Part shown: positions 4,425-28,097 of the stretch, piece by piece
Numbering within the stretch: the stretch's first letter is position 1
Layout: each line of letters begins with the position of its first letter
From: Pseudomonadota bacterium
GTDB lineage: Bacteria > Desulfobacterota > Desulfovibrionia > Desulfovibrionales > Desulfomicrobiaceae
Direction of reading: 5' to 3'
Length of the DNA stretch: 64,000 nucleotides
Assembly (NCBI GenBank): GCA_018902545.1
Contig: JAHIQM010000013.1
Location: 1-64,000 of the forward strand
Translations under genes and position numbers: made by a program
Notes under the pieces: model-generated
What the model was told of the DNA's origin: nothing
Database searches by the model: none
What the model saw: the letters and a program-made list of their open reading frames with translations, nothing else

Positions 4425-5440
4425 CCGGCATGGAGCGCGTACTCTGCGCCCTGCGCGGTGAGCCAGCGGATCGCCGCGCCTTCACTCTGGCCCTGAGCCT
4501 CTACGGGTCCAGGCTCTCCGGATGCCCGACACGCGAGTACTATTCCGAGCCTGTGCGGTATCTGGAAGGGCAGCGCGAGGTCGTGCGTCTTATGGACCCG
4601 GACATAGTCTTTGCCCCTTTTGCACTGCCCTTCGAAGCCCTGGCTTACGGCGGGGAAGGGATCTGGCTGGACAGGTTTCCGCCCAACGTCCGCAAGCCTC
4701 CATTTCGGGAGCACGGCCAGGTGCGACCTTTGGGCGATGACCTGCTGCGCAGTCCCGGAGTGGCTTACCTGATCGAATCCACCCGCCTGCTGGCCGAAGA
4801 GTTCGGGCCGGACAAGGCAGTCTGCGCCGTAGTCACCGCGCCCGTGGACCTGCCGGCCATGCTGCTGGGCATCGAGACCTGGCTTGAGACCCTGCTTTTT
4901 GACCATGAGCGCGCCGCACACCTCATGGACTTGGCCACGGAGCACTTCCTGCGCCTGACCGGAGCCTGTTTCGCCGCTGGGGCCTCCTTCGTGGCCGTTC
5001 CGGTCATGTTCGCCAACCTGCGCCTGGTCACCCCGGCCCTGCTCGAAAAAAACATCCTGCCCGAGCTGGCCCGGGCCTTTGGCCAGGCCAAGGGCCCGCT
5101 GGTCTACCATCACGGCGGCAACCGCATCCTCGACCATCTTGGACTTTACTCGAATCTGCCGGGAGTGGCAGGTTTTCTCTTCGATCCTCGCGATGATCTC
5201 GCGCATGCCAGGGAGACGTTGGGCTTAGGGCGGCTCATGCTCGGCAACGTGAATGGCCCCGGCTTGGCGCGCATGCAGCCCGGCGATGCCTACGCATCCG
5301 TCTCGGCCATTCTGGCCAACCGGGCCGGCGACAGGAATTTCGTGCTTGCCTCGGCGCACGCGGATATCCCCTTCGACACCAACCCTGACACGCTGCTGGC
5401 CGTGCGCCGGGCGGTGGTAGATGCCGGAGCGGTCGCATGA
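4421..5440 (+). CDS. Uroporphyrinogen decarboxylase-family methyltransferase with altered zinc site
   Basis: A 339-residue URO-D family protein related to MtaA/MtbA, which move methyl groups between a corrinoid protein and a thiol. The ATG at 4421 overlaps the previous stop (ATGA) and is preferred over an upstream GTG. In MtaA-type enzymes zinc is held by His-x-Cys and a second Cys in a PGCG-like loop. Here the first motif reads YHHGGN (His230, Gly where Cys is expected) and the second reads ASAHADIP (His313 where Cys is expected). The metal site is therefore His-rich or lost. This is seen directly in the sequence; its consequence is unknown. Partner genes are the corrinoid protein, DUF1638 and a sensor kinase. 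Confidence 0.85.
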   Translation: MTGMERVLCALRGEPADRRAFTLALSLYGSRLSGCPTREYYSEPVRYLEGQREVVRLMDPDIVFAPFALPFEALAYGGEGIWLDRFPPNVRKPPFREHGQVRPLGDDLLRSPGVAYLIESTRLLAEEFGPDKAVCAVVTAPVDLPAMLLGIETWLETLLFDHERAAHLMDLATEHFLRLTGACFAAGASFVAVPVMFANLRLVTPALLEKNILPELARAFGQAKGPLVYHHGGNRILDHLGLYSNLPGVAGFLFDPRDDLAHARETLGLGRLMLGNVNGPGLARMQPGDAYASVSAILANRAGDRNFVLASAHADIPFDTNPDTLLAVRRAVVDAGAVA

Positions 5441-6004
5441 AAGATATCCTGGCCATAACCTGCGGCATTTTCCAGGCAGAAATGGCCGCGCTTGCACCCC
5501 GATTTCCCCGCCTTCGGTTCGTGCATGCCGATTCCATGCTGCACATGCGCCCGGATCTGCTCCAGACCCACATCGATGATCTGCTCGCCGAGCATCCGTC
5601 GGGCAAGGTGCTCTTCATCTATGGCGACTGCACTCCGCGCATCGTCGAGCTGTGCCGGCAGCCCGGTTTTGCCAAGACCTCGGGAATCAACTGCTGCGAA
5701 ATCATGCTCGGCCGTGAGGAATACCGGCGACTGCGCAAGGCCGGAGCATTTTTTTTCCTGCCCGAATGGAGCATGCGCTGGCGACAGGTCTTCGAGCGCG
5801 AGCTGGGCTTTGCCGGCGGACGCGGAGCCGGAGAAATGCTGCGCGAAGTGCACAGTCATCTCATTTACTTGGACACCGGCGTCATGCCTGTGCCACAGGC
5901 GCTTTTGCAGGAAATCAGTCGGGAACTTGTGATGCCCGTGACCGTCCTGCCGACGGGGCTTAACCAGCTGGAGCAGGCTGTCGAAGCCGCACAGGAGAGA
6001 CTCG

Positions 6005-8332: not shown

Positions 8333-8449
8333 TTGGTTGTGAGAGGGCGTGTTGCCGGAAGCAGTGGACAAGATGGGTTTGGGTTGGATCAAATGTTGGG
8401 TTCGAGTGCGGCAATCTGTTTTTTAGGTGTTCGAGACAGGAAATTGAAA

Positions 8450-8482
8450 ACGGGGGCCTCGGCGTTGTGCCGAAGCCCCCGT
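8450..8482 (-). terminator. Rho-independent terminator of nrfHA
   Basis: Stem ACGGGGGC(C/T)TCGGC at 8450-8463 pairs with 8469-8482 around a 5-base loop, with one mismatch. On the minus strand it is followed by TTTTC. It lies 23 bases beyond the nrfA stop. Confidence 0.85.
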
Positions 8483-8504
8483 CATGATTCGGGCTATGCG
8501 AGGT

Positions 8505-10070
8505 CTAGCTGGCGGCAGGAGCCGGGAGCAGGCGTTTGTTGCCTTCCCAGACTTTCTCGGCCTTGGGGGTGAGTTTCAGGTACTGCAGCCATTTGTGGCT
8601 GGCCAGGTGCTCGGGGTCCATCTGCAGTTCGCGGCTGTGATTGAGGATGGGGGGCACCAGTTCGTTGATGTCTCCAGACAGAGCTTCGGCCGTGGTGAAG
8701 GCCGCCGCCTGGACGGCGATGTCCACTGCCTTCTGGCTGTACTGCTGGGATTTGGCCAGGGTGTCCAGGGCCTTGGTCGGATTGTGGAAACCGGCGCTGT
8801 TCTCGGCGGAGACGTAGTCCCAGAAGAACTGTCCCTTGCGGCACATCTGCCGGGCGTCGATCATGAGCTGGTCGAAGTTGGCAGGCTTTTCGCCCTGGAA
8901 CTCGGCGGCCATGCGGATGGCCTCGTGCGCCTTGATGGAGATTTCCTGGGCGATCATGAGCTGGTCCCAGACCTTCTGCTGGCTGAAAATGACGCGCTGC
9001 TTGAGGTAGTCAGGGGTCTTGTCGGTATGGCACTGGCGACAGGCCTTCATGTCCACGTCCTTGAGGGGCGAGGTCCACTGGTGGTTGGAGATTTTCTTTT
9101 TCCCGTCGAGGCGCAGGTAGTTCATGTGACAGTCGGCGCAGGTCACGCCGGCCGCTCCATGGGAACCGTCCTCCCACATCTCGTATTCGGGGTGTTGGGC
9201 CTTGAGCATGGGGGTCTGGGACACGGGATGGACCCAATCCACGAAGTTGCCTTCGAAACCGGGCGTGGTCGTGTCGCCATGAGTCTTGTAGTATTCGAAC
9301 ATTTCTTCGGGGTTTTTGCCCAAGCTCCAGGGGAAGACGGGCTTTTTGGCCGCGCCGAAACCCTTGTCCTGAAAATAGTATTCAACGTGGCACTGGCCGC
9401 AGACCAGGGCGCGCTGCTCATTGCGGGACATGGTCTTGAAATCCTTGCCCTCGGCTTTGAGATAGTCCTGCAGGGGCACGGAGTAGAGGCGCAGCTCCAT
9501 ATTGGCCGGGTCGTGACAGTTGGCGCAGCCGATGGTCAGGTCCTCCATGTCGATATTCTCGCGCAAAGAATTGAAATCCTTTGCCCAGAAATCGTCGCCA
9601 CCGTTATTTTTTACCATGTCGTTCATGTTGGTGACCTTGCAGTTGTAGCAGGTCGCGGGGAGCCCACCTTTCTCGTCATAGCGGTTGATGCGGTCGATGT
9701 GCAGGATGTCCTTGACCGCGTAGGTGTGTCCGCGGGCGCGGCGGTACTCGTAGCTGAAGGGGTAGCCGAGCCACAGGTTTTTCAGATAGGGCTGGGCGTG
9801 TTTGTAGCCCTCGGGCAAGGGGTTTACTCCATCGTTCTTGCTGTGGGGGACGGACCCGCCGTACTCGGTCATGGCCTTGTCGTCGTTGTTGCGCAGGTAT
9901 GTTTCGTAGTGCAGCGGGAATTCGGCCTTGAAGGCGGAGTTCTTGGTTTCTTCCGACGAAAGTTTAGTCTTGAATTCCGGGGTCTTGGGCTCCGATACAT
10001 CGGAACAGCCGGACAGGGCCAGGGCCAGACCCAGGGCCAGGGTGGTCAGAATGGTCTTGGTGCTACGCAT
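8505..10070 (-). CDS. nrfA: Ammonia-forming cytochrome c nitrite reductase catalytic subunit NrfA
   Basis: Reduces nitrite to ammonium with six electrons in the periplasm, and detoxifies nitrite in sulfate reducers. The 521-residue precursor starts with a lipoprotein-type signal (LALGLALALSGCSD). Five heme sites are visible: the diagnostic active-site CYNCK (CxxCK), then CANCH, CGQCH, CADCH and CRQCH. Likely catalytic partners are the Arg in ELRLYS, the Tyr in CHVEYYF and the His in KAQHPEY. The length is normal for the family. The start overlaps the end of nrfH. A strong terminator follows. Confidence 0.98.
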   Translation of the reverse strand: MRSTKTILTTLALGLALALSGCSDVSEPKTPEFKTKLSSEETKNSAFKAEFPLHYETYLRNNDDKAMTEYGGSVPHSKNDGVNPLPEGYKHAQPYLKNLWLGYPFSYEYRRARGHTYAVKDILHIDRINRYDEKGGLPATCYNCKVTNMNDMVKNNGGDDFWAKDFNSLRENIDMEDLTIGCANCHDPANMELRLYSVPLQDYLKAEGKDFKTMSRNEQRALVCGQCHVEYYFQDKGFGAAKKPVFPWSLGKNPEEMFEYYKTHGDTTTPGFEGNFVDWVHPVSQTPMLKAQHPEYEMWEDGSHGAAGVTCADCHMNYLRLDGKKKISNHQWTSPLKDVDMKACRQCHTDKTPDYLKQRVIFSQQKVWDQLMIAQEISIKAHEAIRMAAEFQGEKPANFDQLMIDARQMCRKGQFFWDYVSAENSAGFHNPTKALDTLAKSQQYSQKAVDIAVQAAAFTTAEALSGDINELVPPILNHSRELQMDPEHLASHKWLQYLKLTPKAEKVWEGNKRLLPAPAAS

Positions 10071-20728: not shown

Positions 20729-22447
20729 TTAGTCGTCTTTGCCCGGATCGAATCCGGTCTGCTTGATGAAGCCCATGCCGCCCTGCAGGTTGACCGGGTC
20801 CGTGAACCCGGCTTGGCGCAAGGCGATCTGGGACTCGTAGGATCTGTTGCCCGCGTTACACAGGAGGACAATCTTCCTGTCCTTGGGGATCTCGCCCAGC
20901 CGCTGGCGGATCTGGCCCTGGGGGATGTTCTTCCAGTGATCGGGGTGCCTGGTGACGTAAGGCTCGGCGTTCCCCCACTCGCGAGTGTCGATGCAGAGCA
21001 GGTTTTCCTTGGCCCGGTTTTCCCAGAGGCGGGCGAACTGGTCCGGGGGAATGGGGCTGCACAGCCCGGTAAGGATGTTCTCGGCGGCGTTGGCCGCGGC
21101 GTTCAGCACATCCATGGCCGAGCCGTAGGGCGGCGCGTAGGCCAGTTCCATGTTGGCGACATCACGCAGGGTGGGGCGGTATTTGAGGATGGCGGCCATG
21201 GCGTCGATGCGGTCCTTGAGGGAGTCCCCGTTGTGGCAGGCGCCCTGCAATCCCAGGACTCGGCCGGAGGGGCGTTCGACCACGATTTCAAGGCTGACCA
21301 TGTCGTGTTTGGGGAAGAAGTGGGAGTGGTCGCTCATGATGACCTGGGTGCTGAAGGCGTCGAAGCCTTCGCGCAGGGCCACGGGCAGGGAGAGGCCCGT
21401 CCCGCCGAAGCCGTAGTCGAAGAGCTTGATGATAAAGGTGCCCAGGGCTCCGTCAAAGGTTTCACGTCCCCCTGCGACGTTGGTGCCGATGACACGGCCC
21501 TGGCGGTTGGCCATGGAGCCCAGGGGATAGTAGCCAAGCTTGCCCGTGACCAGGTTTTCGATGACCACGCAGTCGCCGCCAGCGTAGATGTCCGGGTCCG
21601 AGGTCTGCATGGTCTTGGAGACGATGATGCCGCCCCGGTCGGAGCAGAGCAGGCCGGCCTCGCGGGCCAGGGTGTCATTGGGGATCACGCCTACGGCCAG
21701 GATGACCAGGTCGGCGTTGATGGTGCGCTTGTTGGTCACCACGCGGGCGACCTTGCCGTCCTCACCCTCGATGGCCTGGACCATTTCCGACGTGTGGACC
21801 GTGACTTCGTGCTCCTCCAGGTGCTTGCGGGCGATGGCGGCCATGCTCGGGCTCAGGAACCCGGGCATGATCTGGTCCGCCACCTCGACCACAGTGGTCT
21901 CGATGCCCCACATGTCGGCGAATGATTCGGCCATTTCCAGGCCGATGAAGCCTCCGCCGACGATGACGGCCGAGCCGACGCTCCCCGCGGCGACCTGGTC
22001 TTTGATGCGGATGGCCTCGTCCAGGGTGGCCACGTTAAAGACGTTGCCCAGCTCGCGCCCTGGGATGGGCAGCCTGCGTGGGGTGCTCCCCGTTCCGAGA
22101 ATCAGCTTGTCGTAAGGCAGCGTGGACTGGGCGCCGTCCTTGGATTGGACCAGGACGGTTTTAGCCTTTCGGTCGATGGACTGGGCGCGGGTCTCGGTCA
22201 TTACCTTGAAATCTTTGCATGACTGGAAGAATTTCTCGTCACGGACCATGTGGAAGCTCGTTTCCTGCAGCTGTTTGTGGTCGCTGACATCGCCGGACAC
22301 GTAGTAGGGGATGCCGCATCCTCCGTAGGAAATGAGCTTGCTGGCATCGACCATGGTCACTTCGGCATCGGGGACAACTCTCTTCAGGCGGCATGCGGCC
22401 TTGGGGCCAAGCGCCACACCGCCGATGACTACGACTTTGAGGGACAT
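20729..22447 (-). CDS. CoA-disulfide / persulfide reductase with C-terminal rhodanese domain
   Basis: A 572-residue fusion. Residues 1-440 are an FAD- and NAD(P)H-dependent pyridine nucleotide-disulfide oxidoreductase of the CoA-disulfide reductase group, with VVVIGGVALGPKAA for FAD and a single active Cys44 in SYGGCGIPYY. Residues about 470-572 are a rhodanese domain with loop Cys in LLCNAGNRSYE (near 530). This domain order matches NADH-dependent persulfide reductases (Npsr-like), which release sulfide from CoA- or protein-bound sulfane sulfur. The ATG at 22447 follows AAGGAG. It lies downstream of the cytochrome/CCG complex genes and is likely part of the same sulfur metabolism. Confidence 0.9.
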   Translation of the reverse strand: MSLKVVVIGGVALGPKAACRLKRVVPDAEVTMVDASKLISYGGCGIPYYVSGDVSDHKQLQETSFHMVRDEKFFQSCKDFKVMTETRAQSIDRKAKTVLVQSKDGAQSTLPYDKLILGTGSTPRRLPIPGRELGNVFNVATLDEAIRIKDQVAAGSVGSAVIVGGGFIGLEMAESFADMWGIETTVVEVADQIMPGFLSPSMAAIARKHLEEHEVTVHTSEMVQAIEGEDGKVARVVTNKRTINADLVILAVGVIPNDTLAREAGLLCSDRGGIIVSKTMQTSDPDIYAGGDCVVIENLVTGKLGYYPLGSMANRQGRVIGTNVAGGRETFDGALGTFIIKLFDYGFGGTGLSLPVALREGFDAFSTQVIMSDHSHFFPKHDMVSLEIVVERPSGRVLGLQGACHNGDSLKDRIDAMAAILKYRPTLRDVANMELAYAPPYGSAMDVLNAAANAAENILTGLCSPIPPDQFARLWENRAKENLLCIDTREWGNAEPYVTRHPDHWKNIPQGQIRQRLGEIPKDRKIVLLCNAGNRSYESQIALRQAGFTDPVNLQGGMGFIKQTGFDPGKDD

Positions 22448-22551
22448 AAGGAACTCCTTGGAAAATTGATGTATTACAGATGACAAGACTGCAGCGTTCT
22501 CGCCGCATCAGTCTGCGCCGGAAAACAGGGCATGGCGCAAGGCCTGGAAAA

Positions 22552-22654: not shown

Positions 22655-23896
22655 TCATGCCTCGTCCAGATCGATGGCTTCGGCCAGGTAAGCGCTGAAA
22701 AGCTCGATTTTAGCATCCACCTCGTAGGCCTTGCACGTTTCCTGGATGCCGTCCTCGCAGTTGTGGCAGGCCACCACCACCAGGGATGCGCCCGTTGCCC
22801 TGATACATTCGGCCTTGGCCTTCATGGCCGCGATCTTGCGTTTCTTGTATTCCGGCATAAGCCCCTGTCCGCCACCGTTACCGCAGCAGTACGTGGCGTT
22901 GCCGGCCGGGTGCATTTCACGGAAATCCGTGGCCACGGCGGCCATGAGCTGCCTGGACTGTCTATACATGCCGGCGTTGCGGATGAAGTTGCAGGAGTCC
23001 TGGAAGGTTACCGGCACGGTGTGAAATCCCTTTTTCAGCTTCAGCCTGCCCGTAGCTAGGCCGTCCGCCCAGACCTTGATGGGCGGAGTGGCCTCGAAAC
23101 CAAGCGTCCTTTTCAACCAGAGTGGCGCCTCGAACCCGAGAGCCTTCATGGAGTGGCCTCATTCGGCGGTGATCACCGCCCTGACCTTGAGGGCTTCCGC
23201 CGCGGCGATGACATTGCCAGCCAGTCGGGACGCTGCCGGGACGTCGCCGGCGAAGAGCCCGAGGTTGGTGGAGTCCCAGGCCCGGGTCGACAGGGTGAAA
23301 TCGACTCCAGCAGCGTTGTACAGCTTCAGGTAGTTGTACAGGTTCTGAGGGTAGAATTTGATGTCGCGTGGATGAAAGGTCAGCAGGTACTCGGCCCCTT
23401 CCCGGTCCATGGGAGCCTCTGCATCAGGCATTTCCTGCTGCAACTCCTCAAGCTGCCACTCCACGGTGTCTACGAAATTTTCTTCCGTCACGGCAAGGTT
23501 GTTGCCGAACTCCAATGCGTTTTGCAGGCCGCTGGCCAGTCCGCTCGGAGTCATGCCCATGGCGGCGGCCACTCCCCGGGCCGCGTGGACCAGGGCGGCG
23601 ATGCCGATGCCGTGAGGACAGTACATGGTGCAGCGCTGGCACATGGTGCAGGTCCCGTAGCAGACGTCGCGCAGTGTCTCCAGCATCTCCATGGTCACCT
23701 TGCCGCGCCTGCGGTACAGGTCAAGAAGCGGCTTGATCCTGTAGGACGGCACGTGCTCCGGTCTGGGATCGGAGGCATAGTAATGGCAGCCCTCAGCGCA
23801 CATGCCGCACCGGGAGCAGATGGACAGCCACATTTCAAGCCGGGCTCCGGCCTTTTCCTTCATGGTCCTGTCGAGAATGTCCGCATCAAAATTCAT
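22655..23896 (-). CDS. CCG-domain Fe-S oxidoreductase (DsrK/TmcB/HdrD-like), predicted selenoprotein
   Basis: Read as one 413-residue protein with an in-frame TGA (23159-23161) decoded as selenocysteine at residue 246. The N-terminal half has two ferredoxin sites, CSRCGMCAEGC and CTMCQRCTMYC. The C-terminal half is a CCG domain with CCGNGGG and CHNC. The sequence around the TGA reads VITAE-U-GHSMKALGF; relatives have Cys here (ECGHA type), a ligand of the catalytic non-cubane cluster. A SECIS-like hairpin follows at the right distance. The first CCG domain is otherwise degenerate. It forms a complex with the upstream cytochrome b-like and tetraheme subunits, probably exchanging electrons with a cytosolic disulfide. 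The alternative is a nonsense mutation giving two fragments, but both halves stay in frame and conserved. Confidence 0.82.
23127..23161 (-). promoter_or_regulatory. UGA codon with bacterial SECIS-like hairpin
   Basis: After the UGA (23161-23159), 15 bases lead to GCUCUC (23143-23138), a 6-base loop GGGUUC (23137-23132) and GAGGC (23131-23127). The stem pairs with a single bulged U, and the apical loop starts 21 bases after the UGA and begins with GG. A bulged U and a GG(U) loop 16-37 bases after the UGA are the known requirements for SelB recognition in bacteria. Confidence 0.75.
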
Positions 23897-23922: not shown

Positions 23923-24579
23923 TTACCAGGGGCCCACTTCGCGCTTGCCGAAATCGCTTCCGGTGGCTGCGCGGGAAACGAAGAAGAGGGCCATGTGGGT
24001 GAGTTTGGTGAACGGGGCCACGATGAGCACCGCGTGAGCGCTGAGAACGTGCAGGGTCAGCATCAGCAGGGATTCGCCCCATTGCTGGTGGGCCGCAAAT
24101 CCCGTGAGCAGCGGCAGGGCGACGAGGCCCAGGACCGCCAGGTCCTTGCCTTCGGTCAGGCCTTTGAGCGACGGATGCAGCAGTCGTTTTCCAGCCAGGA
24201 AGGCCAGGCTGGCCAGGGCCAGAACGGTCAGTCCGTCGGCCCATGCGTCGGGGATGGTCGGCCATGAGAGTCCGAAACGTTGCTCCACCATGACCACGTG
24301 CGCCGAAAAGAAGAGTCCGACGACGAGCAGCGGGATGTGCAGCCCGAAGCCGGCCAGGGTGGACCAGGGACTGCTGCGGGCGGTACGGTTCAGGGGCAGG
24401 AGAAAGTGCACGATGGAGGCCAGAGCCCAACCGGGCCGGAAATCCGCCGGCAGGCCCTGGCGCGCTTTGGACATGAGAACCCGGTAGCGCACCAGCCTGT
24501 AGGCGAGGCCGCAGAGGAAAAATGCGCTGGAAAACCAGAGCATGGGGCCGGTGGCGAAGTCGTAGACGGCGCGGATCAT
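23923..24579 (-). CDS. Cytochrome b-like (NarI/DsrM/TmcC-type) membrane subunit
   Basis: A 218-residue membrane protein with about five to six helices and several His in or near helices (VHFLLPLNR, LHIPLLVVG, SAHVVMV, LHVLSAHAV, LTHMALF) that could bind b-type hemes and menaquinone. It links the periplasmic cytochrome to the cytosolic CCG subunit. The ATG at 24579 overlaps the cytochrome stop (ATGA); an upstream start is possible but would add a basic stretch. The gene order here is cytochrome - membrane - CCG, unlike the tmcABCD order I know, and no tmcD-like gene is seen. Confidence 0.82.
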   Translation of the reverse strand: MIRAVYDFATGPMLWFSSAFFLCGLAYRLVRYRVLMSKARQGLPADFRPGWALASIVHFLLPLNRTARSSPWSTLAGFGLHIPLLVVGLFFSAHVVMVEQRFGLSWPTIPDAWADGLTVLALASLAFLAGKRLLHPSLKGLTEGKDLAVLGLVALPLLTGFAAHQQWGESLLMLTLHVLSAHAVLIVAPFTKLTHMALFFVSRAATGSDFGKREVGPW

Positions 24580-24983
24580 CGGGGTTGCCGTTCTTGTCCG
24601 CGGACGTGGCATTCCCCGCAGGTCACCGGGGCCTTCGGACTTTGCTCATGACACCCGACGCACTGGCCGTGCCAGGCTTGACGCAGGCCGAGCCTGCCCC
24701 GGTCCCCAGCTTCGTGGCAGGCCGAACAGCGAGTCTGCATGTCGTGTTCCCAGATGTTCTGGCCGTTTTCGTAGCTGTGGTGGCAAAGGGTGCAATCCAG
24801 GTCTTCGGCGTGCCGGTCGTGGTCGAAGGGAACTCCTGGTCTCTGGGGCGCCTGGAAGGCCGGATCGAGCAGAAGTACAGGCTGCGCGACGCAATCCGCT
24901 GTCGGCACGACGACCGCGAGGGCGAGCGCGAGGAAACCAAGGCGGAAAAATCGCGCCAAATACGTGCTGGTCTTGGTTTTCAT
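24576..24983 (-). CDS. Periplasmic tetraheme cytochrome c (class III / TmcA-like)
   Basis: A 135-residue precursor with signal peptide (about 1-32). Four CxxCH sites: CTLCHH, CSACH, CVGCH and CGECH, with HDRHAEDLDC supplying extra His ligands typical of cytochrome c3. It probably carries electrons from periplasmic hydrogenases or formate dehydrogenases into the membrane complex encoded by the next two genes. The ATG at 24983 is preferred to a TTG two codons upstream. Divergent from an Rrf2 regulator gene across 229 bases. Confidence 0.88.
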   Translation of the reverse strand: MKTKTSTYLARFFRLGFLALALAVVVPTADCVAQPVLLLDPAFQAPQRPGVPFDHDRHAEDLDCTLCHHSYENGQNIWEHDMQTRCSACHEAGDRGRLGLRQAWHGQCVGCHEQSPKAPVTCGECHVRGQERQPR

Positions 24984-25212
24984 GTGCAAGAAGGTATGGT
25001 TGCGACGCTTTGAGCGGCAAAAACAGGGTAAGGGTTCATGCTCTGCGGTTCCAGATTTTCAGCGAAAAGAATTGCCGTTTATTAGCCCGTATGTTTTTAA
25101 TAGGCAAGCGAATGGGGGGAGATGCACGAGTTGCGGGACCGTGTTTGACGTAATGCGATCCTTGTCATAGCTTCAATCCAGTAATCCATAACCTCCGCAA
25201 AGGTATTTTTTC

Positions 25213-25671
25213 ATGAAAATTTCCGCCCGTTCCCGCTACGCCACCCGTATCCTCATCGATCTGGCCATGAACGACGACGACGCGCCGGTTCGAACCACCT
25301 TCATTTCGGAGAGGACGGGGATCACAGTTCAGTTCATCGAGCAGATCCTCAAACCGTTGCGGCAGGCCGAACTGGTCGTCAGCAAGCGCGGAGCTACCGG
25401 CGGGTATCACCTGAACAAACCGGCAAGCGAAGTATCCCTCGGCGAGATTGTGCGCACCATGGAAGGCTCTCTTTCCTTGACGGATTGCTGTGATGATGCC
25501 GAATTGTGCTCGCGTACCGACATCTGCCTCACGCGCGACGCCTGGAAGCGGATCAGCACGGTGCTGGCCAACGCTCTCGACTCGATCAAACTGTCCGATA
25601 TCATTGACGGTCTCCCCCCGCAATGCGAGAGCCTCAAGGGTGACCTGGACGATATCAGGACGGTGTGCTGA
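25213..25671 (+). CDS. Rrf2-family transcriptional regulator, first copy
   Basis: A 152-residue winged-helix regulator. The DNA-binding part begins MKISARSRYATRILIDLA with GATGGYHLNKP in the wing. Cysteines in CCDDAELCSRTDIC lie where IscR/NsrR/RsrR proteins hold an Fe-S cluster, so redox, NO or sulfur sensing is likely. It is divergent from the cytochrome/CCG complex genes, which may be its targets. A possible promoter TTGACG-N17-TAGCTT lies at 25145-25173. Confidence 0.9.
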   Translation: MKISARSRYATRILIDLAMNDDDAPVRTTFISERTGITVQFIEQILKPLRQAELVVSKRGATGGYHLNKPASEVSLGEIVRTMEGSLSLTDCCDDAELCSRTDICLTRDAWKRISTVLANALDSIKLSDIIDGLPPQCESLKGDLDDIRTVC

Positions 25672-26101: not shown

Positions 26102-26548
26102 ATGCGCATTTCGACTACGACTCATTACGCCTCCCGACTGTTGCTGGATCTGGCCCTGCATGCTGATTCGGCGCCCGTGCCCGCCTCCAAGCTGGCGGAG
26201 CACACCGGCATCCCCGTCAAATTCGTCGAGAAGATCGTCAGGCCGCTTAAAGCGGCGGGTTTCGTCAGAAGCGTCCGCGGGGCCATGGGAGGCCACGCCC
26301 TGAACTGCCAGCCCAACGACATCACCCTGGGCAGCGTGGTGCGCCTCATGGATGGCGGCATCCGCCTGTCGCAGTGCAGCGGCAGCGACGCCAACTGCAA
26401 TGCCTGCCACGAATGCAAGACCCGCGAGGTCTGGCGCGGAGTGACCGAAAAACTGGAACGCGAACTCGATTCCATCACCCTGGCGGACATGCTCGGCAGT
26501 CGAAAGCCCGGCTGCTGGCACATGGCCATGACCGGTACTGAAGGGTAG
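26102..26548 (+). CDS. Rrf2-family transcriptional regulator, second copy
   Basis: A 148-residue paralogue of the gene at 25213 (MRISTTTHYASRLLLDLALH start, SVRGAMGGHALN wing). The sensor loop is richer in Cys: LSQCSG, NCNACHEC, and a further Cys near the end (KPGCWH), again suggesting an Fe-S cluster or thiol switch. It is preceded by the operator-bearing promoter at 25808, so it is probably autoregulated, and it likely controls the SQR operon through the same operator (inference). Confidence 0.9.
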   Translation: MRISTTTHYASRLLLDLALHADSAPVPASKLAEHTGIPVKFVEKIVRPLKAAGFVRSVRGAMGGHALNCQPNDITLGSVVRLMDGGIRLSQCSGSDANCNACHECKTREVWRGVTEKLERELDSITLADMLGSRKPGCWHMAMTGTEG

Positions 26549-26858: not shown

Positions 26859-28097
26859 ATGAAGAAACTGCTCATTCTCGGTTCCGGCTCCGGTGGAACC
26901 ATGGTCGCCACAAAAATGCGCCACAAGCTCCCAGAAAGCGAATGGGAGATCACGGTCATCGATCGTGACTGGCAGCACCACTACCAGGCCGGTTGGCTGT
27001 TCGTGCCTTTCGGAGTTTACACTCTCAAGGATTGCATGAAGCCCAAGGCAGACTTCATCCCCAAGGGCGTGAAGCTGGTCATGGACAGCATCGAGAATAT
27101 CGATCCGGCCAAGAAAGTCGTCAAGTGCAAGAACGGCTCCTATTCCTACGACTGGGTCGTCGTGGCCACCGGCTGCCGCATCTGCCCCGAGGAAGTGGAC
27201 GGCATGATGGACGACTGGGGTGGCAACATCCATAATTTCTACACCCCCAACGGCGCTGAGGCTCTGTTCAAGAAGTGGAAGAACATGAAGGAAGGCCGCA
27301 TCGTTCACCACATTGCCGAGATGCCCATCAAGTGCCCTGTTGCTCCCCTTGAGTTCGTCTATCTGGCCGACTGGTTCTTCACGCTCAAAGGCGTGCGCCA
27401 GAACATCGAGATCGAGTTGGTCACCCCCCTGACCGGCGCCTTCACCAAGCCCGTGGCCGCCAAAATCCTCGGCAAGGTTTGCGAAGACAAGAACATCAAG
27501 ATCACTCCGAACTTCGTCGTCGACAGCGTCAACGTCGGCAACAAGACCCTCGAATCCGTGGCCGGTGAAGAAGTGCCCTACGATCTGCTCGTGGCCATTC
27601 CGCCGAACTTCGGCCAGCAGGTCATCATCGATTCCGGTATGGGTGACGCCATGGGCTATGTCGAAACCGACAAGCACACCTTGAAGGCCAAGAACTTCGA
27701 AAACATGTACGTCATCGGAGACGCCACTAACGTACCCACCTCCAAGGCGGGCAGCGTAGCGCACTATCAGTCCGACATCGTGGTTGATAACCTGGTCCGC
27801 GAAATGGAAGGCGAAGAACCGGAACCGGCTTTCGACGGCCACTCCACCTGCTTCATCGTCTCCGGCTACGAGCAGGCCTACCTCATCGACTTCAACTACG
27901 AGGTCGAGCCCCTGCCCGGCAAATATCCCTTCCCCGGCATGGGACCCTTCTCCCTGCTCGGCGAGTCCCACATGAACTACTGGGGCAAGATGATGTTCAA
28001 GTGGATTTACTTCGACCTGATGCTCAAGGGCAGCGAGCTGCCGCTCGAACCGCAGATGTTCATGGCCGGCAAAATGCGTCACTTGGCCAAAGCTTAA
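26859..28097 (+). CDS. Sulfide:quinone oxidoreductase-type flavoprotein
   Basis: A 412-residue FAD protein. ILGSGSGG binds FAD at the N-terminus, GDATNVPTSKAGSVAHYQ is the C-terminal FAD/quinone-site motif, and Cys159 (in IKCPVAP) and Cys331 (in GHSTCFI) match the pair of redox cysteines that carry polysulfide in SQR. It oxidises sulfide and passes electrons to the quinone pool at the inner face of the membrane. The C-terminal part is amphipathic. Strong ribosome site AAGGAG. Followed 12 bases later by DUF1641, a frequent companion of SQR-like proteins. Probably repressed by the neighbouring Rrf2 protein. Confidence 0.9.
   Translation: MKKLLILGSGSGGTMVATKMRHKLPESEWEITVIDRDWQHHYQAGWLFVPFGVYTLKDCMKPKADFIPKGVKLVMDSIENIDPAKKVVKCKNGSYSYDWVVVATGCRICPEEVDGMMDDWGGNIHNFYTPNGAEALFKKWKNMKEGRIVHHIAEMPIKCPVAPLEFVYLADWFFTLKGVRQNIEIELVTPLTGAFTKPVAAKILGKVCEDKNIKITPNFVVDSVNVGNKTLESVAGEEVPYDLLVAIPPNFGQQVIIDSGMGDAMGYVETDKHTLKAKNFENMYVIGDATNVPTSKAGSVAHYQSDIVVDNLVREMEGEEPEPAFDGHSTCFIVSGYEQAYLIDFNYEVEPLPGKYPFPGMGPFSLLGESHMNYWGKMMFKWIYFDLMLKGSELPLEPQMFMAGKMRHLAKA

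Follow-up and report, generated by a model that had tools for sequence, protein, structure and literature searches.

Does the TGA codon that interrupts an iron-sulfur protein gene in this stretch of DNA (the window, 64,000 nucleotides in full) end one gene, disable it, or encode selenocysteine (Sec)? The minus strand carries the gene, from 23896 to 22655; a preliminary description of this DNA had placed it correctly but left the strand unstated. Without read-through the list of open reading frames contains two separate frames at this place, of 245 aa and 164 aa, the pair of truncated genes that had been foreseen for conventional annotation. Plain ORF calling splits such subunits, so a clade of this kind is easily overlooked in surveys of respiratory complexes. 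When the TGA is read as a residue, codon 246, it joins 245 and 167 codons into one frame of 413 codons (MNFDADI...TAE-U-GHSMKAL...), and a second TGA, at 22655-22657, is the terminal stop of the same gene.

The translation of this frame bears out the proposal that the TGA splits what is otherwise one continuous protein, since Pfam recognizes a dicluster ferredoxin in its N-terminal part (Fer4_8, residues 24-97) and a CCG domain in its C-terminal part (PF02754, residues 296-381, over the cut-off). Its best NCBIfam match is HmcF, with 343 bits over residues 2-410 against an equivalog cut-off of 750, and the second is TmcB, with 292 bits against 735. Scores this far under the cut-offs suggest, as far as sequence models can tell, that the 413-aa protein represents a separate branch.

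From the conservation of the TGA, coding selection on both sides of it, a downstream hairpin, and the Sec machinery of the genome, all of it sequence evidence, we infer with high confidence that UGA codon 246 is decoded as Sec to give one full-length subunit of 413 residues. SelB and tRNA-Sec would decode the codon, directed by the hairpin that lies just downstream. The features of the locus are collected in Table 1.

Table 1. Features of the interrupted gene and its surroundings, in positions of the window
Feature	Position	Strand	Basis
CoA-disulfide reductase/NADH oxidase-like protein with C-terminal rhodanese domain	20729-22486	-	
B-subunit gene, predicted Sec-containing double-ferredoxin and CCG Fe-S protein, Tmc/Hmc-like, 413 aa	22655-23896	-	read-through translation, Pfam, NCBIfam
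SECIS-like hairpin, GGCUCUCG-GGUU-CGAGG(C)GCC	23124-23144	-	fold, compensated pair among 16 orthologs, greater strength than Cys paralogs show
UGA codon 246, predicted Sec, in E-U-G-H (relatives E-C-G-H)	23159-23161	-	alignment of orthologs and relatives
C subunit, TmcC/HmcE-like membrane anchor	23923-24612	-	NCBIfam TmcC 194 bits (cut-off 240), HmcE 169.6 (cut-off 275)
A subunit, TmcA-like tetraheme class III cytochrome c, four CxxCH	24576-24989	-	NCBIfam TmcA 101.7 (cut-off 114), Pfam Cytochrom_CIII
Rrf2-family protein, divergent from the A-C-B genes, possible regulator	25213-25671	+	TIGR00738 and PF02082 over cut-off
Second Rrf2-family gene	26102-26548	+	
Type III sulfide quinone reductase (SQR), match to a selenoprotein-subtype model, by eye a Cys version	26859-28097	+	NF049943, 680.7 bits (cut-off 525)

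Conservation of the UGA codon and of the protein around it

Orthologs were found in 18 of the 348 genomes of the order (E <= 1e-100), in 7 of its 59 genera. The TGA is present in all 18, within E-U-G-H each time (17 full-length genes and one fragment), although several of these orthologs are near relatives and hence not independent observations. The ten named records that carry the gene are metagenome-assembled genomes, with labels that include Desulfovibrionales, Desulfovibrio sp. and Humidesulfovibrio.

To place the codon within the wider family, 65 proteins were aligned, the window's own included. These were drawn from 89 extracted sequences, leaving out second copies (L108-L112, L114 and one L113 row), near-identical HmcF- and TmcB-like rows, L107, and L056; the last of these is cut by a contig end and was left out of the hairpin and selection counts too. 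Column 246 holds Cys or Sec in 65 of 65, and E245, G247 and H248 are likewise invariant, as are C302, C337, C338, C377, C380 and the eight ferredoxin cysteines. The preliminary description had matched the TGA to the Cys of an ECGHA-like motif and had proposed to check homologs at this column; the alignment agrees, with no relative carrying any residue other than Cys or Sec. The ECGH cysteine is common to the DsrK-, TmcB-, HmcF- and HdrD-like subunits aligned. Such subunits probably exchange electrons with thiol/disulfide carriers in sulfate reducers. In the five rows that we take to be DsrK from their size, the column is Cys in every case and the motif reads ECGHM. The more distant CCG proteins L107 and L135-L137 lack the ECGH motif.

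The TGA recurs at the same column in three more groups: L078-L080, L095, and the HdrD-like L096-L105 together with L113. In a sample of the phylum, 26 of 395 genomes gave a match (E <= 1e-95), and a TGA was present in 5 of the 26 matches listed, the window's own among them. By these alignments Sec is predicted at this column in at least three distinct regions of the family's tree. The exact exchange of the ECGH cysteine for Sec in several groups marks the residue as likely to be redox-active.

Selection on the coding sequence extends across the codon. In nine chosen ortholog pairs, several with dS values above 1, dN/dS was 0.08-0.16 before the TGA and 0.06-0.26 after it, and the two values were of the same order in 9/9. 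In another reading the locus would encode two proteins, a 245-aa protein ending at the TGA and a 164-aa protein started by translational coupling at an ATG four codons later. That ATG is found in 8 of 17 orthologs, the window's included, but the remaining nine have Ile or Leu at the codon, and their first possible start lies 15-27 codons past the TGA; because the ATG is present in only 8 of 17, a restart there is not conserved. Moreover, the aligned Cys relatives are single proteins, and the invariant Cys/Sec residue sits at the very point of the break, which makes two separate products very improbable.

The downstream hairpin and the selenocysteine machinery

The predicted Sec reading requires a decoding apparatus, and its parts were found in the window's genome (22 contigs, 99.8% complete): selA (569.6 bits), selB (360.9 bits, on the window's own contig), tRNA-Sec (selC, 87.4 bits where 47 is the gathering score), and selD (331.7 bits). 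The preliminary description had predicted that the CCG Fe-S subunit of a cytochrome/membrane redox complex contains Sec, and had pointed to these genes as a check; their presence and the Cys/Sec column both support it. The selD gene has one internal TGA of its own, in ..AAG-U-AAK.., followed by what looks by eye to be a hairpin-forming sequence.

In the interrupted gene, the apical loop of the hairpin, GGUU, starts 22 bases after the UGA; for the hairpin in general a loop at 22-23 bases from the codon is given. By itself the hairpin of the window is no more stable than chance would make it (z = +0.71, with 150 of 200 shuffled sequences reaching its fold energy or a better one); single-sequence stability was thus dropped as proof of a SECIS element and a comparative control was used in its place. 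When the whole 54 bases from the UGA are folded, the best structure includes the apical hairpin for 10 of 17 orthologs; for the other seven the stem is taken up in pairing with the region of the UGA. Bases close to the UGA lie inside the ribosome during decoding, so bases 15-40 were folded by themselves. These give a mean of -12.2 kcal/mol for the 17 orthologs and means of -12.5 (n=3), -12.6 (n=1) and -11.4 kcal/mol (n=11) for the other Sec groups, against -6.1 (n=16), -6.3 (n=15) and -5.3 kcal/mol (n=17) for 48 Cys paralogs, among which single sequences reach -11.2 kcal/mol. As background, 8.1% of 4574 codon positions in ten genes of the window reach -9.0 kcal/mol.

The ortholog sequences also point to a maintained stem. 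The loop reads GGUU or AGUU at one place in all 16 aligned orthologs, and the pair that closes it (columns 25/30) is G-C in seven, A-U in nine and broken in none; L041, whose 54 bases are those of L040, was left out of the ortholog hairpin alignments and of both trees described below. Over 14 distinct rows, the six-pair stem forms 89.3% standard pairs, with a covariation score of 0.218 that 0 of 500 shuffles reached. Related sequences inflate covariation tests of this kind, two of the five measures were not above shuffles (both-side changes, 179/500; further pair types, 500/500), and 9 of the 14 rows leave the outermost pair, 20/35, open. The partner base in the closing pair is the silent third position of a Phe codon, which is TTT in 9/9 genes with A opposite and TTC in 8/8 with G; TTT is used in 21 of 154 cases elsewhere in the first set of genes and in 47 of 120 in the second. 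A Leu codon in the stem is CTC in 17/17 genes, compared with 199/676 elsewhere. Only these codon-specific tests are reported, because a windowed measure of synonymous conservation ranked other parts of the gene above the hairpin region, which is not one of its best-conserved stretches.

Bacterial SECIS elements generally have a G within the first two bases of the loop, and the loop found here fits that plan. Of the hairpin first proposed for the locus, the loop that starts with G has held, whereas the bulged U has not: this base, the 21st from the T of the TGA, is predicted to pair with G, and all of the 16 aligned orthologs but the window's, 15 in number, have C in its place. As judged from sequence comparison, it is the comparative evidence that raises the hairpin above chance, and not its own stability.

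The hairpin and the machinery also weigh on the possibility that the UGA is read through as Cys or Trp, without Sec. Relatives do have Cys at this position, but the hairpin is stronger in the genes with the TGA, the genome has the full Sec machinery, and a TGA also acts as the terminal stop of this very gene, so that we regard such read-through as scarcely probable. Least credible of all is a pseudogene or sequencing error, with the TGA as a nonsense mutation or base-calling fault in one genome: the ORF list does give two separate frames, but the TGA occupies the same codon in 18/18 orthologs from seven genera, purifying selection continues downstream, and the machinery for Sec is present.

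Structure and the putative role of Sec246

An AlphaFold model of the 413-residue protein (mean pLDDT 93.5, pTM 0.91) finds its best solved match in EtfD of Mycobacterium smegmatis (PDB 9ojn; Z 28.5, rmsd 2.9, 382 residues), with further matches to an integrative LutA model (Z 22.3) and to HdrB chains (Z 19.9-20.7); a sequence search of the PDB matched no DsrK structure. The geometry of Sec246 relative to the cluster, as proposed here, rests on a profile alignment to EtfD. In this alignment Sec246 corresponds to Cys581, His248 to His583, and C302/C337/C338/C377/C380 to C637/C672/C673/C709/C712 (numbers counted along the alignment). According to the EtfD report (PMC13083937), the five second-domain cysteines and His583 hold a noncubane [4Fe-4S] cluster, and Cys581, Cys503, Cys538 and Cys584 hold a linear [3Fe-4S] cluster. 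The five noncubane cysteines and the histidine have counterparts in the window's protein, whereas the first-domain ligands of the linear cluster are conserved only at the Cys/Sec position. Since the 65 relatives have no invariant Cys between residues 93 and 246, and position 249 (the counterpart of Cys584) is A, S, V, E or T and Cys in 0/65, the first CCG cluster site appears from the alignment to be gone, with Sec246 as what is left of it.

This correspondence changes the part that Sec may play. The preliminary description made it a ligand of the catalytic cluster; its choice of residue stands, but its assignment of a ligand role is weaker, as the EtfD counterpart Cys581 holds the linear cluster. 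Direct ligation of the noncubane cluster by Sec246 would agree with the invariance of Cys/Sec in all 65 proteins and with its distance of two residues from His248, whose counterpart His583 is a noncubane ligand. However, Cys581 binds the linear cluster, the other cysteines of the linear site are not conserved here, and five second-domain cysteines already match the noncubane set, and direct ligation is in our judgment unlikely. A free redox partner beside the noncubane cluster is a more likely role for Sec246 than that of ligand, and by the model and alignment we put its chances at about even. More tentatively, and with the balance somewhat against it, Sec246 and His248 may together cap the single noncubane cluster, so that a disulfide or persulfide is split between Fe and Se. 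If true, this would be a hybrid active site, in which a membrane respiratory complex contains a noncubane centre of selenium and iron; selenium is visible by EXAFS or 77Se EPR, unlike sulfur, and offers an experimental handle.

With Sec246 as a redox partner, a working scheme can be outlined in which assembly of the complex, cluster type, Sec role, substrate, and direction of electron flow are all predicted. The complex in this genome would comprise A, a periplasmic tetraheme cytochrome c3, C, the membrane anchor, and B, the Sec protein, as the cytoplasmic subunit. The two ferredoxin-type clusters would exchange electrons with the periplasmic cytochrome (or quinone) pool, and from these clusters electrons would move onward to the noncubane [4Fe-4S] cluster at C302, C337, C338, C377, C380 and probably His248. 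Sec246, two residues from His248, would face this cluster as its redox-active partner and would attack (or release) a disulfide or persulfide substrate.

Related systems, gene neighborhood and history

Sec in CCG proteins with a UGH motif has been known since 2006, and the new part is a Sec clade in a Tmc/Hmc-like membrane setting. The survey of Zhang et al. (2006, PMC1794560) gives five cases of an Fe-S oxidoreductase GlpC selenoprotein, three in Syntrophobacter fumaroxidans and one each in Desulfotalea psychrophila and Desulfovibrio vulgaris. A 2026 review (PMC13188914) gives the motif of this selenoprotein as UGH, and PMC9312934 includes the same selenoprotein in its list. PMC2702500 counts HdrD4 and HdrF2 among the selenoproteins of Desulfobacterium autotrophicum and gives HdrF2 a CCG region. 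No B subunit of Tmc/Hmc type with Sec is described in the accessible portions of the literature on TmcB, Hmc, Tmc and GlpC with selenocysteine, which extend to neither Table S3 of PMC2702500 nor Table S4 of PMC4287179; a literature search on DsrK with selenocysteine found none.

The known UGH family of GlpC/HdrD-like proteins has the U-G-H motif and an occurrence in Deltaproteobacteria in common with the 413-aa protein. Some of its members belong to an hdrA-frhD-frhG-frhA operon, which is absent at the window locus, where the neighbors are TmcC-like, TmcA-like, CoA-disulfide reductase-like, Rrf2, and SQR genes. Compared by motif and setting, our L096-type group, double-ferredoxin and CCG proteins encoded beside HdrA- and HdrB-like genes, is probably this known family (WP_174406253.1, PTHR43551). 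It was found in 97 of the 348 genomes of the order (E <= 1e-70), mostly with the TGA; 16 of the rows listed lack the stop, two of these being fragments that fall short of the column. Its proteins are 25-28% identical to the 413-aa protein, have a soluble Hdr-type setting in contrast to the membrane anchor and cytochrome c found here, and form a clade separate from that of the window's protein in both trees.

Each of the named Cys subunits resembles the window's protein in part. TmcB (NF045724) has the same domain order and TmcC- and TmcA-like companions, but TmcB-like rows carry Cys in ECGH; the gene order here is A-C-B, unlike that of Tmc, and the same genome has a separate Cys TmcB-like gene (L106). 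HmcF (NF045711) is the best NCBIfam match, but the score is below the cut-off, and the cytochrome here has 4 CxxCH motifs compared with the 16 hemes of HmcA; a Cys relative in the same genome (L032) is presumably HmcF itself. DsrK (NF045796) again shows the same domain order and ECGH, but matches the 413-aa protein with 184.7 bits against a cut-off of 400 and has Cys in all five presumed rows. Because all complex-specific NCBIfam models match below their cut-offs, the names Tmc and Hmc are used loosely here.

Neighborhoods were compared by tblastn, because most of the frames that simple ORF calling gave in this GC-rich DNA were shadow frames, and that calling was left unused. In 20/20 ortholog loci, several of which are one genome seen twice, the gene immediately upstream of the Sec gene is related to the anchor gene. 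For 6 of 17 orthologs a multiheme cytochrome gene was found upstream at a distance of up to about 1.5 kb, and in one of them (L041) it seems to be frameshifted; subunit A is therefore not a fixed part of the complex. The TmcA-like cytochrome gene of L057 (4970-5316) seems to be frameshifted, with two overlapping tblastn pieces and two CxxCH in the main frame, which could be an assembly error.

Two Rrf2-family genes stand in tandem between the A-C-B and SQR genes of the window, and one or two Rrf2-like genes, 38-48% identical, lie beside the Sec genes of L042, L043, L044 and L057. On the other side, the CoA-disulfide reductase-like protein carries the motif CGIP, by eye the Cys version of a family whose Sec form has UGxP according to PMC13188914. 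It had no tblastn match in the other ortholog loci, many of which offer only about 1.5 kb of flank, and for want of such matches it was not counted as part of the complex. The same review gives HxxU as the motif of the type III SQR selenoprotein; in the SQR frame of the window, which has no internal TGA, this position reads HSTC by eye, again a Cys version, as it does in the SQR of L057. Three genes lying close together thus come from families with Sec forms, and one alone has a TGA. The CoA-disulfide reductase and SQR neighbors hint at persulfide chemistry, with only the SQR found beside another copy of the Sec gene (L057).

Within its own family, sampled in 22 genomes, the gene was found in the window's genome only, the next best matches being 38% identical, and its copies in another family are 78-81% identical to it. 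The flanking genes are kept in L057: the SQR (92% identical), a DUF1641 gene (76%), response-regulator and histidine-kinase genes (73%, partial), and, as weaker matches, two Rrf2 genes (38-44%). Because of this identity across families and the flanks kept in L057, sequence comparison suggests that the block was transferred horizontally.

The Sec clade was recovered with support of 100/100 in a first tree (16 rows) and 99/100 in a second (11 rows), from which L107 and L135-L137, without ECGH, were left out. On the first tree at least four changes involving Sec are needed, one of them due to L107. The second tree was rooted on the DsrK rows and its count of groups sets Sec against these rows only; its backbone is unresolved, and the first tree warns of long-branch attraction. 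The Sec genes of L078-L080 and L095 are nested among Cys relatives in both trees. A single origin of Sec common to this clade and the HdrD-like group was considered, and with the backbone unresolved it is neither shown nor excluded.

Cys and Sec versions may also stand side by side. The L113 stretch, which belongs to a different genome of the phylum, encodes a Cys Tmc/Hmc-like B subunit (4674-5915) and a Sec HdrD-like protein (8370-9575) about 2.5 kb apart, with an HdrA-like gene at 59-1543. One genome carries the Sec HdrD-like gene twice, with equal scores and on separate contigs (C166:14571-15812 and C304:13375-14616).
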